Below are positions 27,693 through 32,124 of a DNA stretch of 32,124 bases, piece after piece. This DNA is from Sphingobacteriales bacterium (lineage in GTDB: Bacteria; Bacteroidota; Bacteroidia; Chitinophagales; Chitinophagaceae). Location of the stretch: assembly GCA_016185185.1 (NCBI GenBank), contig JACPOD010000044.1:1-32124 (forward strand). Reading direction: 5' to 3'. Under the pieces are notes generated by a model. It ran no database searches and had not been told where the DNA came from. It saw only the letters and a program-made list of their open reading frames with translations. Position 1 is the stretch's first letter, and each line of letters begins with the position of its first letter. The position numbers and the translations under genes were made by a program.

Positions 27693-28346
27693 CTATACTA
27701 TTTTTTCTTTTAAAGCTTTGGAAACGGCTTCGGTAGCGGAGGCAACATGCAATTTCTGGTAAATAGATTTTACATATCCCCTTACCGTTTCGTAACTAAG
27801 AAAAATTTTTTCAGCAATGCGGGGCATAGGCATGCCTTCGGTAAGCAAGTGCAAAATTTCTCTTTCTCTTGCAGTGAGCTGGTAATCGGTAACTGTTAAG
27901 GATGGTACAATAAATTGCTGAAAAAGTTTTACCACTTTACCGGCAATAACAGGATTAAATGCAACACCACCATTTTGAACATCGGCCACAGCTTCCAGCA
28001 TTTTTATGGGAGAAGTATTTTTAAGGATATAACCGTTAGCGCCGGCACACAATGCTTCAAATATTTTAGCATCATCTTCAAACACTGTTTGTATTAAAAT
28101 TTTTATTGCAGCAAAATTATTTTTAATAAGTTGTGTGGCAGCAATACCGTCAATACCGGTCATTTCAATATCCATTAGCACCACATCAGGATTGCTTTTT
28201 TGTATATCATGCTTCCAGTTATTGCCATTGGTAAAACATCCGCAGCAGGTATAACCGGGCGAACCATTTAAAATAGAGCGGTAAGCATCCATCATTATGG
28301 GATTGTCTTCAAAAATAGCCACCCGTATTACTTTGTTGTTATTCAC
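27693..28346 (-). CDS. NarL/FixJ-family response regulator
   Basis: 217 residues from GTG 28346 (NNNKVIRVAIFEDN). The receiver domain has the acidic pair E13/D14, phospho-acceptor D59 in VVLMDIEM, T87 and K109 in GYILKN. The C-terminal LuxR-type helix-turn-helix is LTAREREILHLLTEGMPMPR, followed by IAEKIFLSYETVRGYVKSIY. It is the cognate partner of the adjacent HisKA_3 kinase. GTG 28346 is preferred to ATG 28391 because a perfect TATATTTG -7 element (28358-28351) lies between them; the ATG start would add GGERSIHSS, which is not family sequence. The leader would be only a few bases. Motif copy B lies just upstream, suggesting autoregulation. Confidence 0.9.
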   Translation of the reverse strand: MNNNKVIRVAIFEDNPIMMDAYRSILNGSPGYTCCGCFTNGNNWKHDIQKSNPDVVLMDIEMTGIDGIAATQLIKNNFAAIKILIQTVFEDDAKIFEALCAGANGYILKNTSPIKMLEAVADVQNGGVAFNPVIAGKVVKLFQQFIVPSLTVTDYQLTAREREILHLLTEGMPMPRIAEKIFLSYETVRGYVKSIYQKLHVASATEAVSKALKEKIV

Positions 28347-28350
28347 CGTA

Positions 28351-28399
28351 CAAATATAAGTTGAGGAATGTATGCTTCTTTCTCCCCCCATTTGAGGGA
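28351..28399 (-). promoter_or_regulatory. Internal promoter of the response regulator with operator motif, copy B
   Basis: The minus strand reads AATTCCCTCAAATGGGGGGA with the dyad centre 37 bp upstream of TATATTTG (28358-28351). No TTG is found at -33, as expected for a promoter that needs an activator. It lies between the kinase stop codon and the regulator start. Confidence 0.6.
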
Positions 28400-28400
28400 A

Positions 28401-29144
28401 TTATAATTCCAGCTTCACCACTGTGCCTTTTCCCGGCGCCGTATCTATAATCAGTTTTGCCCCTATTTCATCAGCCCTTGCTTTCATATTCATTAATCCG
28501 TTGCCTGGTGTAATTTCATTTATATTAAATCCCTGCCCGTCATCTTCCACTTCCACTAATAATTTTTTTTCCTGCAAAATGATACGACAGTATAAATTAC
28601 GGCAACCTGAATATTTTACTGCATTATTTATAGCTTCTTTGCTGATAAGGTACAAAACTTTTCTTTCCCGGATATCTGATAATCTTGCCGGTATGGGTGG
28701 TGTATAGGTAAAATGAAGGCTAATGTTTTTTGAAGAGGTTGCCGCCTTACTGAACAGTTTAATTTTATTTACCAGCAATGAAATGGATTCAGCAGCCGGT
28801 TTAAGCAGCCAGGCCATATCACTTACTTTTTCTATTACCTCACCGGTATAGCTGTTTATTTTTTGTAAAAGTTCAGCGGCATTACCATGGCCGGGTTGTT
28901 TTAATTGTTCCTGCGCTAATTGATTGAGCATGTTAATACCGCTTAATGAAGAGCCAATATCATCGTGAAGGTCTCTTGACATCTGCAGTAAGGCTTCCTC
29001 TCTTGTTTTATATGCCTGCTCCAGTAATTCTTTTTTATGCTGCATGGCCCGGCGGCGGCTGATGGTAAAGGATAACAGCAACAGTACCGCAGCCGTTAAT
29101 GTAAACAGCACAGCAAATATTAATATGCGGGTTACTTCATCCAT
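28401..29144 (-). CDS. Sensor histidine kinase, HisKA_3 (NreB/DesK-like)
   Basis: 247 residues: one N-terminal membrane helix (ILIFAVLFTLTAAVLLLLSF), a coiled linker, the HisKA_3 dimerisation box with phospho-acceptor H60 in SRDLHDDIGSSLSGI, and a HATPase domain (KEAINNAVKYSG, EVEDDGQGFNI, GNGLMNMKARADEIGA, GKGTVVKLEL). It has no periplasmic sensor domain of its own. Its start overlaps the end of a polytopic membrane protein gene by 13 bp, so that protein is a likely sensory partner. It should phosphorylate the NarL-type regulator encoded 54 bp downstream. Confidence 0.93.
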   Translation of the reverse strand: MDEVTRILIFAVLFTLTAAVLLLLSFTISRRRAMQHKKELLEQAYKTREEALLQMSRDLHDDIGSSLSGINMLNQLAQEQLKQPGHGNAAELLQKINSYTGEVIEKVSDMAWLLKPAAESISLLVNKIKLFSKAATSSKNISLHFTYTPPIPARLSDIRERKVLYLISKEAINNAVKYSGCRNLYCRIILQEKKLLVEVEDDGQGFNINEITPGNGLMNMKARADEIGAKLIIDTAPGKGTVVKLEL

Positions 29145-29788
29145 TTATATGCTGCTCTGAATCCTGCCCAAAGGCATAAATGAAGTACGAAAGTTATTAA
29201 ATGATTGGCATAAAAAATAAAAAGGGGCAGCCACGAAATTTTACTTTGCAGAATAGTGTTATACATCCCCAGCATAACAGCGCTGAAACTAAAATAGATG
29301 ATAAATCCGGCGCTGAACCAGTAATAAAAATCCTGTCGCAGCGGTGTGGTGATATTTTTATCGAGAAATAATTGTATTAAATAACTGACAGAAAAAAATA
29401 TAATCGCTGTACTGGCTACCGTGATATAATAAGTATCAAGACCCTGATTCTGATAAAGCACCAGGTGTACAACCTGCCATATAACTAATAAAACGGCAAT
29501 AACAATGCTCCACCATTTCATTGGGTTTTTTGCAAACACATCTGCATAGAGCAAGAGCACAGCAGGATAAAATATAATATTAAAAAAATTGTACAGCCAA
29601 AGATTTTGGATATGAAAAGCTGCCAGTATTTTGCCAGTCATTTCTGTAAGAAATGTTAGCACCCATATAGCAATAAAAAATTTCCATGTAAAGGAATAGC
29701 GTCTATTCCAGCAACGAATAGCAAGCACGGCTGTTATAAACTGTGCAACAAGAAAACCCCACTGGATAAAAGCATTTAACCAGTTCAT
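29132..29788 (-). CDS. Polytopic membrane protein, probable sensor partner of the kinase
   Basis: 218 residues with about seven hydrophobic helices (FIQWGFLVAQFITAVLAI, FFIAIWVLTFLTEMTGKILA, FFNIIFYPAVLLLYADVF, WWSIVIAVLLVIWQVVHLVL, VASTAIIFFSVSYLIQLFL, FYYWFSAGFIIYFSFSAVML, FIFYANHLITFVLHLCLWAG). No enzymatic motif and no named family recognised. Its tight coupling with the downstream kinase, which itself has only one helix, suggests it detects the membrane or envelope signal. Genes of this type are commonly found next to HisKA_3 kinases in Bacteroidota. Confidence 0.8.
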   Translation of the reverse strand: MNWLNAFIQWGFLVAQFITAVLAIRCWNRRYSFTWKFFIAIWVLTFLTEMTGKILAAFHIQNLWLYNFFNIIFYPAVLLLYADVFAKNPMKWWSIVIAVLLVIWQVVHLVLYQNQGLDTYYITVASTAIIFFSVSYLIQLFLDKNITTPLRQDFYYWFSAGFIIYFSFSAVMLGMYNTILQSKISWLPLFIFYANHLITFVLHLCLWAGFRAAYKWMK

Positions 29789-30407: not shown

Positions 30408-31532
30408 ATGATTAGCCAGGAATTTATATTTTCAAAAAAACCAACTGTAAAGTTGTTGAGGCATTTTTTGTTCTGGCTGCTGTTTTCCCTGCATTTTATT
30501 ATACAAAACCTGATGATTGGCGGGCCCGGTGAGGCAAAAACATCCCGTACATTTATTGAAAGTTTTTTGCACCTGTTGTATTTCCTCCCGGTTTTTATAC
30601 TGTCCACTTACTTTTTTCTGCAGGTTATTTTACCGGCAACTTTATTTAAAAAGAAATACCTGCTTTTTTCTTTTGCCTCATTCCTGTTGTTATCGTTCAG
30701 CATTGCCGGATGTTACTGGATGGGTAAATTATATATTCATAATACCTATAAGATTCCTTTTGATAAAATAACTTTTTTACAAAACAAATATCATGTGCTG
30801 GTAAACGGCTTCTTTGTAACTCTCATGCTATGGGGAATTGCCGGCGGGTTTAAACTGGCAAAAAAATGGTACGAAAAACAAAAAGAAAATGAAAAGCTGG
30901 CGCAGCAAAAAATTGCTACTGAAATAAAATTGCTTAAAACACAAATCCATCCACGTTTCCTTTTTCATTCTTTACATTCTGTTCAGCAACAGGTGGAGGC
31001 ATTATCCAAAGAAGCCCCCGGTATGATTTTACAATTAGCAGATATGTTGAGCTATCTTTTGTATGAAAGTGATGAGGAGTTTGTATTGCTTGAAAAAGAG
31101 GTTGAGATAACCCGTTCTTATATTTTATTGCAGCAGGCCGGCAGTAAAAACAAAGTGGATTTTAAATTGAGGATACTGGGTAAAACACAGGGAATACTTA
31201 TTACCCCTTTAATTCTTTTTGCTTTTACTGAAAGTTTTTATGAACTTTTTCTTGAGCATCCGGCTGCTGTAAACTCATGCCTGCTGGAAGTTGAAATAAA
31301 AGACGACACTGCAATTTTTATAATTGACAGTACTGTTGGTAACAACAAAAATTTGATGGGGAAGTTAACCGGCTTTCAGTTACAAATACAAAATCTTTAT
31401 CCGCATCAAAATAAGATGGAAATTAAGAATACGGATGGCGGTTTTATGTTGTTATGGGAAATCCCTATCAGTACAAAAAATATAAGTGAAGAAAATAAAA
31501 CGGTTTTACATGAAGAAGGGCTGGCTGTATAA
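30408..31532 (+). CDS. LytS-type histidine kinase homologue without catalytic residues
   Basis: 374 residues: four membrane helices (residues about 15-150), a coiled linker (KWYEKQKENEKLAQQKI) and a His_kinase domain. The family box QxNPHFLFNxLN is here QIHPRFLFHSLHS, so the phospho-accepting His is Arg (R183). In the ATPase part the ENAIKHG box is replaced by ESFYELF, and the DNGxG box by IDSTVGN. The fold outline (ILITPLILFAFTE ... LTGFQLQIQNLYPHQNKMEI) is retained. It should not autophosphorylate. It overlaps the canonical kinase gene downstream by 23 bp, so a heteromer in which it senses or regulates its partner is likely. Confidence 0.85.
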   Translation: MISQEFIFSKKPTVKLLRHFLFWLLFSLHFIIQNLMIGGPGEAKTSRTFIESFLHLLYFLPVFILSTYFFLQVILPATLFKKKYLLFSFASFLLLSFSIAGCYWMGKLYIHNTYKIPFDKITFLQNKYHVLVNGFFVTLMLWGIAGGFKLAKKWYEKQKENEKLAQQKIATEIKLLKTQIHPRFLFHSLHSVQQQVEALSKEAPGMILQLADMLSYLLYESDEEFVLLEKEVEITRSYILLQQAGSKNKVDFKLRILGKTQGILITPLILFAFTESFYELFLEHPAAVNSCLLEVEIKDDTAIFIIDSTVGNNKNLMGKLTGFQLQIQNLYPHQNKMEIKNTDGGFMLLWEIPISTKNISEENKTVLHEEGLAV

Positions 31533-32124
31533 TATTATTTTATCCAACGATAAGTGGTATAGGGTGCAAAGGCATTTGTTCTTTTGGCTGGCTGTATATA
31601 TTTACCAGGTATTACGAATAAGTATTTTTTATCCGCCGGATAAATTGTGGAACGGCATGCCAGCTATATTAAAAATGTCACTTATTTTTGGATGCTTTTT
31701 TTTAATTTATTTCACCTATACGTTTGTTTACTACCTGGTTCCCCGGTTTTATAACCGGAAAAAATATTTTCTTTTTGGGGTTGCTGGTTTTCTGCTCATC
31801 GTTTCTTTAGAATTACTGGCACTAACCTATAATTATTTAAATATATCAGCACAGGTTACCAGGCTTATTGGAATAAATTTTACCCAGGCAGGTTTTATGG
31901 AAAGTTACCGCCCGCCATTAATCAGGATGCTGGGCAACCCGCCACTTATCTGCGGTTTCTTTTTAGCATTAAAAACCATGAAGAACTGGTATAAGGAACA
32001 ACTGCAAAATGATTTACTGGCAAGAGAAAATGCCAATGCCGAATTACAATTATTAAAAGCACAGGTTCACCCGCATTTTTTATTCAATACGCTCAACAAT
32101 ATTTATTCTTTTACTTTAAACCAG
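31510..32124 (+). CDS. LytS-type sensor histidine kinase, 5' part
   Basis: The frame from ATG 31510 is open to the window edge (205 codons seen). It has membrane helices (HLFFWLAVYIYQVL, MSLIFGCFFLIYFTYTFVYY, YFLFGVAGFLLIVSLELLAL, NPPLICGFFLALKTM), a linker (NWYKEQLQNDLLARENANAE) and an intact box QVHPHFLFNTLNNIYSF, with the catalytic His at residue 189. The ATP-binding part lies outside the window. Compared with its upstream neighbour it has the same layout with proper catalytic residues. Such kinases usually pair with a LytTR-type regulator, which would be expected just downstream. Confidence 0.9.
   Translation, partial: MKKGWLYNIILSNDKWYRVQRHLFFWLAVYIYQVLRISIFYPPDKLWNGMPAILKMSLIFGCFFLIYFTYTFVYYLVPRFYNRKKYFLFGVAGFLLIVSLELLALTYNYLNISAQVTRLIGINFTQAGFMESYRPPLIRMLGNPPLICGFFLALKTMKNWYKEQLQNDLLARENANAELQLLKAQVHPHFLFNTLNNIYSFTLNQ

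Follow-up and report, generated by a model that had tools for sequence, protein, structure and literature searches.

A degenerate LytS-like histidine kinase encoded beside a canonical one in the Chitinophagaceae: an old gene pair and probable heteromeric receptor

In a Sphingobacteriales bacterium of the Chitinophagaceae, the gene for a LytS-like histidine kinase whose phospho-accepting His is replaced and whose ATP-binding boxes are degraded stands directly before, and in the most likely gene model overlaps, the gene for a LytS-like kinase with a canonical H box, and the adjacency of such genes together with their grouping in phylogenetic trees indicates that they probably represent an old pseudokinase/kinase pair that acts as a heteromeric receptor. 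The window (the whole stretch of DNA analysed, 32,124 nt) is one entire contig (JACPOD010000044.1) of a 2.84-Mb assembly (GCA_016185185.1) in 122 contigs that was judged 81% complete. The pseudokinase, the first-position member of the pair, is encoded at 30408..31532 on the plus strand by an intact reading frame for 374 aa, and its assignment draws on the ORF list, a match to PF06580, a structure model and the state of its motifs. Its layout comprises four hydrophobic helices, a long linker helix and DHp-like and CA-like folds in which the catalytic boxes are degraded.

The H box of this protein reads QIHPRFLFHSL, as opposed to QVHPHFLFNTL in the product of the next gene. Alignment places Arg183 (codon CGT, 30954..30956, plus strand) where the PHF motif has the phospho-accepting His, and His187 (30966..30968, plus strand) where FLFN has the conserved Asn. 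The His in PHFLFN that marks an active kinase is thus lacking, and so are the N-box Asn/Lys and the glycine box: the N box is reduced to a remnant, ESFYE, at 31230..31244 (plus strand) versus the canonical ENSFK, and the glycine box/ATP lid region (31320..31379, plus strand) contains no GxG at the aligned position. In the LytS-type kinase BtsS the phosphorylated residue, His382, sits between Pro and Phe, and an H382Q variant could not be phosphorylated (available text of PMC10653868); because this Pro-His-Phe setting is the same, Arg183 can be taken to replace the catalytic His. A sequence-only reading of the same DNA had claimed Arg in place of the catalytic His (HPRFLF versus HPHFLF), an N box without Asn, no DNG box, an intact frame with membrane helices and QVHPHFLFN in the overlapping downstream gene, and each of these claims is borne out by the motifs, the frame and the helices described here. 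A sequencing error at the Arg codon was ruled out, as Arg is also found in separate assemblies from the same and other genera.

The 374-aa protein scores 58.5 bits against PF06580 (cut-off 25.2), and no other Pfam domain, 5TMR-LYT and GAF included, was found in a scan up to E 1; PF06580 is also matched by all 23 members of A4 at E <= 0.01. The absence of a Pfam HATPase match was dropped as a sign of loss, the canonical partner in locus L047 being likewise without one, and in NCBIfam the pseudokinase matched nothing, while the partner had a single match below threshold. The structure predicted from 48 sequences (mean pLDDT 88.1, pTM 0.67) opens at its N terminus with four long helices, hydrophobic also by hydropathy, the fourth of which continues into the linker and is followed by DHp-like helices and a CA-like alpha/beta fold; a further hydropathy peak lies at residues 256-281, within the CA-like domain. 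For residues 176-356 of the model the closest solved structures are histidine-kinase domains, those of GanS (Z 12.7, rmsd 4.4, 168 residues aligned) and DosS (Z 12.7, rmsd 2.6, 121 aligned) among them. GanS was also retrieved when solved structures were searched by sequence (E 0.0013), a search in which matches to beta-lactamases were taken as chance. By this predicted model the DHp-CA histidine kinase fold is retained, a likeness of fold that says nothing on function.

The second gene, most likely starting at ATG 31510, was followed over its 5' part of 205 codons (31510..32124, plus strand) to the end of the contig, for which reason the catalytic half of its product, with the N and G boxes, is out of view; the part present encodes a LytS-like kinase with a canonical H box and keeps QVHPHFLFNTLNNIY. 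The remaining contigs of the genome were searched for the 3' half with the corresponding stretch of a relative as query, and only other kinase paralogues were hit. With the start at 31510 the two genes overlap by 23 nt (31510..31532, plus strand), a length also seen in the relatives L047 and L048. On the other side of the pseudokinase gene, at 27693-29788 on the minus strand, lies a second signalling cluster composed of a LuxR-type regulator, a HisKA_3 kinase whose N-terminal part is short and, with a 13-nt overlap, a hydrophobic-looking protein without a Pfam match; this cluster is perhaps a split sensor and kinase.

The sequence-only reading had named orthologues that keep the His and the ATP-binding boxes, and hence a recent loss in one strain, as the finding that would overturn it. 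Searches with the window protein covered 244 genomes of the family and 3 of the genus, and the best three intact relatives (L047 in G029, 44% identity; L048 in G205, 43%; L018 in G002, 43% over its first 293 residues and 36% in the full alignment) all have PRFLFH, that is, Arg for His and His for the Asn of FLFN, as well as degraded N and glycine boxes. All three stand before a canonical kinase gene, with an overlap of 23 nt (L047 and L048) or 14 nt (L018). Since the nearest intact relatives share both the Arg and the degraded boxes, and the trees group them with the window protein, recent loss in one strain is ruled out. Conservation of the His-to-Arg change itself held among these nearest relatives and failed across the wider clade, where the column is occupied by R, E, D, G, A, T or N, or by H. 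From the alignment, the constant feature of the clade is the degraded ATP site and not the Arg, and the His-to-Arg exchange is the version of this lineage.

Named genomes (the best 80 of 107 matches, in 79 loci) and 394 genomes of the family were searched with a profile built from 11 degenerate proteins; results from the family genomes, with this profile and with the partner profile described below, hold among the matches listed. The kinase-family ORFs of 189 sequences were sorted by motif columns, and ORFs aligned over at least 250 positions gave, with near-identical ones collapsed, 172 distinct proteins. Thirty-seven of these lack the His, with R (10), D (8), G (7), E (6), A (3) or T, P or N (1 each) in its place, and among them the Asn of FLFN is lost in 35, the N-box Asn in 24 and the N-box Lys in 32 (L074, with a gap at both N-box columns, is one of the 37). 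The broken degenerate gene of L063 is not among the 37 because of the filter on length and near-identity. In the other 135 proteins the His is present, accompanied by the FLFN Asn in 131 and by the N-box Asn in 132; the four that combine the His with loss of the FLFN Asn are those members of the degenerate clade in which the His persists.

The sequence-only reading had also asked whether the tight gene overlap is conserved, and for the most part both pairing and overlap are. In 33 of the 37 cases the His-less gene has a His-bearing kinase gene as its same-strand neighbour at a distance of no more than 200 bp, the His-less gene being first in 23 pairs and second in 10, and the partner is cut by the contig end in two (the window and L096). 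Of the remaining four, L050 and L090 have a partner with a broken frame, L082 has a gene inserted before its partner, and L188 is alone: its degenerate kinase (L188:3350-4444) has no partner on the same strand, and a canonical kinase and a regulator lie divergently to it. Overlap is found in 28 of the 33 pairs, most often of 14 nt (12 pairs) or 4 nt (5 pairs), when scored from the most upstream start codon, which can overstate it. Second-position pairs are probably undercounted because the loci were collected with first-position profiles. Among the hosts with a pseudokinase and its partner are the cultured Niastella vici (L069), Niastella yeongjuensis (L102) and Ginsengibacter hankyongi (L078). 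Six tandem pairs have the His in both members, and three of these begin with a degraded His-keeper; L060, L183 and L185 are pairs of two canonical kinases and, although outside the paired clades, may depict the arrangement that preceded the loss.

Forty loci, those of the 37 His-less genes and of the four His-keeping clade members, were inspected for neighbouring genes. A same-strand regulator within 3.5 kb was present in 35, located 3' of the kinases in 34 and 5' in L064, and is similar to a relative's regulator that matches Response_reg and LytTR; the LytTR domain was scanned in that one protein and the other regulators were judged by similarity. The five loci without a regulator are four cut by the contig end (the window, L096, L106 and L128) and L188, in which it is distant and on the opposite strand. 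A putative outer-membrane protein of about 360 aa is encoded in 12 of the 40 loci, 5' of, inside or 3' of the cluster (for example L018:7300-8376, L047:10139-11224, L048:6442-7527, L050:10300-11379 and L171:955-2034), and in L082 its gene is the one between the two kinases. One of three such proteins examined has a sub-threshold match to MipA. It is a candidate signal donor or a candidate target among regulated genes; a homologue on another contig of the window's genome (C38) lies in a different gene setting and was set aside. At L018:4970-11453 two full pseudokinase/kinase pairs follow each other, separated by an outer-membrane-like gene, and a single regulator closes the row.

The same association was approached from the partner side with a profile of 20 partners run on the 394 family genomes. 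The best 24 matches (at least 427.9 bits) all have a neighbouring second kinase gene, with one gene between in G330, and these neighbours comprise 21 without the His, 2 with the His and degraded ATP boxes, and 1 (G384) cut by the contig end. The search is partly circular, as 14 of the 24 best matches were in the profile; the other 10 divide into 7, 2 and 1 in the same categories. Below the score gap, the nine loci examined (L218-L221 and L223-L227, one with a broken frame) have unpaired canonical kinases, whereas the kinase of G242 is paired, as are the partners with broken frames in G193 and G354. Among the matches listed, the pair is thus found in about 24 of the 394 family genomes, window included. 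Of 395 genomes sampled across the class, 14 had a match at E 1e-70 or better; the degenerate loci among those fetched, besides the window, were in G535 and G548, each from another family and each paired, and the rest were canonical.

We assessed the ancestry of the two kinases in quick trees with SH-aLRT support only, in which some branches are long (L179, L119 and L106 in the 94-row tree, others in the 172-row tree). In the 172-row tree the window protein groups with its three Arg relatives (99), and sets are formed by 30 rows including the window (98), by the 10 second-position degenerate proteins (100) and by 38 partners (98). No truly lone canonical kinase falls inside the partner clade of this tree, its two seemingly unpaired rows being the broken partner of L050 and the separated partner of L082. 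A 94-row tree, from which L188 was omitted and which included 16 of the remaining canonical kinases, recovered the 30 first-position members (99) and their 28 partners (99), the 10 second-position members (100) and their 10 partners (95), as well as all 38 partners together (96). A tree of the membrane part, containing no catalytic columns and 91 of the 94 rows (three without a clear cut point were dropped), gave the same four sets (89, 91, 95 and 95); since the membrane part alone yields them, grouping as an artefact of shared loss is ruled out.

By alignment, the loss of the phospho-accepting residue that marks a pseudo-histidine kinase is conserved in 26 of the 30 first-position members. 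The four that keep the His (L067, L170, L127 and L128) all lack the FLFN Asn and the N-box Lys; the glycine box is lost in L127 and L128 and one of its glycines is kept in L067 and L170, and the N-box Asn is kept in L067 and L127. The His state changed at least three times within the clade on the 94-row tree, and a His that, once lost, was never regained would require 8 losses on either tree. Placed on the tree, these losses suggest that a degraded ATP site is the common feature and that loss of the His was a repeated, later step.

The losses in the first-position members are concentrated at, though not confined to, catalytic columns. In the examples selected here from a longer table, the residue typical of the partners remains at the His in 4/30, at the FLFN Asn in 1/30, at Arg250 in 0/30, at the N-box Lys284 in 0/30, at the N-box Asn in 8/30, at Asn313 in 2/28 and at Gly329 in 2/29. 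Kept are Arg21 and Trp26 (27/27 each), Lys182, Leu194, Tyr221 and Glu236 (30/30 each) and Pro272 (29/30), while non-catalytic columns that are also lost include Ala176 (4/30), Thr193 (3/30) and Asp242 (5/30). Lys284, Arg250 and Gly329 are retained in 38/38, 38/38 and 37/37 partners and in 16/16, 15/16 and 16/16 other canonical kinases. NG86 dN/dS of the degenerate gene was 0.08 (L047/L048), 0.11 (L049/L082) and 0.09 (L075/L175, second-position), and that of the partners in the same genomes 0.10, 0.09 and 0.07. These values are rough, since dS was as high as 1.4-3.3 and saturation affected the remaining four comparisons of degenerate genes, among them that of the window. The three pairs open to measurement, none of which contains the window gene, are under strong purifying selection, and selection of this kind in relatives suggests that the degenerate protein has a function.

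The best explanation of these data, and one we consider likely, is that a non-catalytic receptor subunit and a working kinase form a heteromer in which the pseudokinase sets the state of its partner. The first gene would provide the receptor subunit, in which membrane sensor, linker and dimerisation helices are kept and the phospho-acceptor and much of the ATP site are lost; the second would provide the working kinase, with the response regulator of the same cluster, as judged from gene order in the relatives, as the likely target of phosphotransfer. The heteromer would most likely assemble through the matching membrane, linker and DHp helices of both proteins, binding of a signal to the pseudokinase would set the kinase/phosphatase state of the partner, and the outer-membrane protein of some clusters could be signal donor or target. 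Histidine kinases in general are homodimers, and native ChrS and HrrS kinases have been reported to heterodimerise in two-hybrid assays, in which a truncated ChrS pseudokinase showed no significant heterodimerisation (available text of PMC9491836); RetS heterodimerises with GacS and thereby inhibits it (available text of PMC12189002), and AlgZ is a further precedent (PMC4064291). A cluster shared by two kinases is nevertheless not proof of a shared complex. More tentatively, and with somewhat less than an even chance of being right, the pair may be an old two-gene kinase working as an obligate asymmetric dimer, one protomer sensing and the other catalysing, in which the ATP site was degraded first and the His then lost repeatedly, and the same division of labour may have arisen again with reversed gene order.

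Several other explanations were weighed against the heteromer. The pseudokinase could act on the response regulator instead, by binding it through the DHp region, by sequestering or dephosphorylating it, or by reading its phosphorylation in the manner of DivL with DivK~P. We regard this as unlikely. The invariance of Leu194, Tyr221 and Glu236 in the DHp region and the regulator gene in 35 of the 40 loci fit such a role, for which DivL is a precedent (available text of PMC4211667). However, regulators dock near the His of histidine kinases, and positions there vary (Gln184 kept in 11/30, Asn195 in 4/30), the His itself is replaced in many ways, and a clade of partner kinases of its own would be left unexplained by action on the regulator alone.

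An unusual catalysis of the degenerate protein, either non-canonical nucleotide binding or, in second-position members, an ATP site that phosphorylates the His of the partner in trans, appears improbable. It draws some support from the N-box Asn and Lys kept in 13 and 5 of the 37 His-less proteins, and from L053, which lacks the His (Gly instead) and the FLFN Asn yet keeps ENK and GxG; this second-position protein (L053:6797-7978) is a possible ATP-binding subunit for phosphorylation of its partner in trans. In the window's own clade, by contrast, Lys284, Arg250 and Gly329 are almost entirely gone and in partners and canonical kinases almost universally present. Very doubtful is also the notion of parallel sensors that share a cluster and form separate complexes, the first acting through, for example, the putative outer-membrane protein: the gene for that protein, in 12 loci and between the kinases in L082, and the solitary degenerate kinase of L188 would accord with it, whereas 28 of the 33 adjoining pairs overlap (scored from the most upstream start codon) and 28 of the 40 loci have no outer-membrane-like gene within the stretch examined. 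Least credible is ordinary decay of a functionless duplicate into a pseudogene, for which the six tandem His-keeping pairs could be the source of spare copies and the broken ORFs of degenerate genes (L063, L074) or partners (L050, L090) could be examples, but frames are mostly intact over a deep clade with conserved order and overlap, and recent decay is unlikely because of the separate tree groups, the kept scaffold residues and a dN/dS of about 0.1 where measurable, so that the earlier judgement that this is not simple decay stands.

Few natural pseudo-histidine kinases are known to us. DivL of Caulobacter, as the available text of its accounts describes it, likewise has a histidine-kinase fold with the phospho-accepting His replaced and works without kinase activity by controlling another kinase, CckA (PMC4211667, PMC12189002), but unlike the protein described here it retains, the His aside, all of its H, N, G1, F and G2 boxes and carries PAS domains (PMC4211667). 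In the present case the sensor consists of membrane helices, the ATP site has degenerated, and the kinase under control is probably the product of a homologous neighbour gene. The genes of RetS and GacS of Pseudomonas are unlinked, whereas the present pair is adjacent, mostly overlapping and homologous. One kinase of the RetS/GacS pair regulates the other by heterodimerisation, as is proposed here from gene adjacency and tree grouping; the two differ from the present pair as hybrid kinases, with additional siphoning or removal of phosphate (available text of PMC12189002). LytS/LytTR systems of the BtsS/BtsR type share the PF06580-type kinase, the PHF H box and, as seen in a relative of the window, the LytTR regulator, and LytS proper has 5TMR-LYT and GAF domains (available text of PMC10653868 and PMC5552118), neither of which Pfam finds in the window protein; relative to these systems, a second, degenerate kinase has been added. 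ChrS and HrrS of Corynebacterium glutamicum are paralogous kinases that heterodimerise, and a dead version of ChrS alters signalling, but that pseudokinase arose by truncation in laboratory evolution and the heterodimer is one of native kinases (available text of PMC9491836); the pseudokinase here is natural, of full length and old. Pseudo-histidine kinases as such are thus already known, from DivL, and no published account of a LytS-type pseudokinase/kinase pair was found in a search that left subscription papers mostly outside, which is weak evidence of novelty.

In some three dozen loci a degenerate kinase neighbours its working partner, and repeated loss of the His alongside retention of much of the scaffold makes these loci a natural series in which to ask what is required of a kinase subunit that has been freed from catalysis. 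For annotation the family carries a warning, in that these genes score far above the cut-off of a histidine-kinase Pfam family and yet kinase activity is not to be expected of their products. Heteromeric two-component signalling of this kind would be directly testable in the cultured hosts Niastella and Ginsengibacter.
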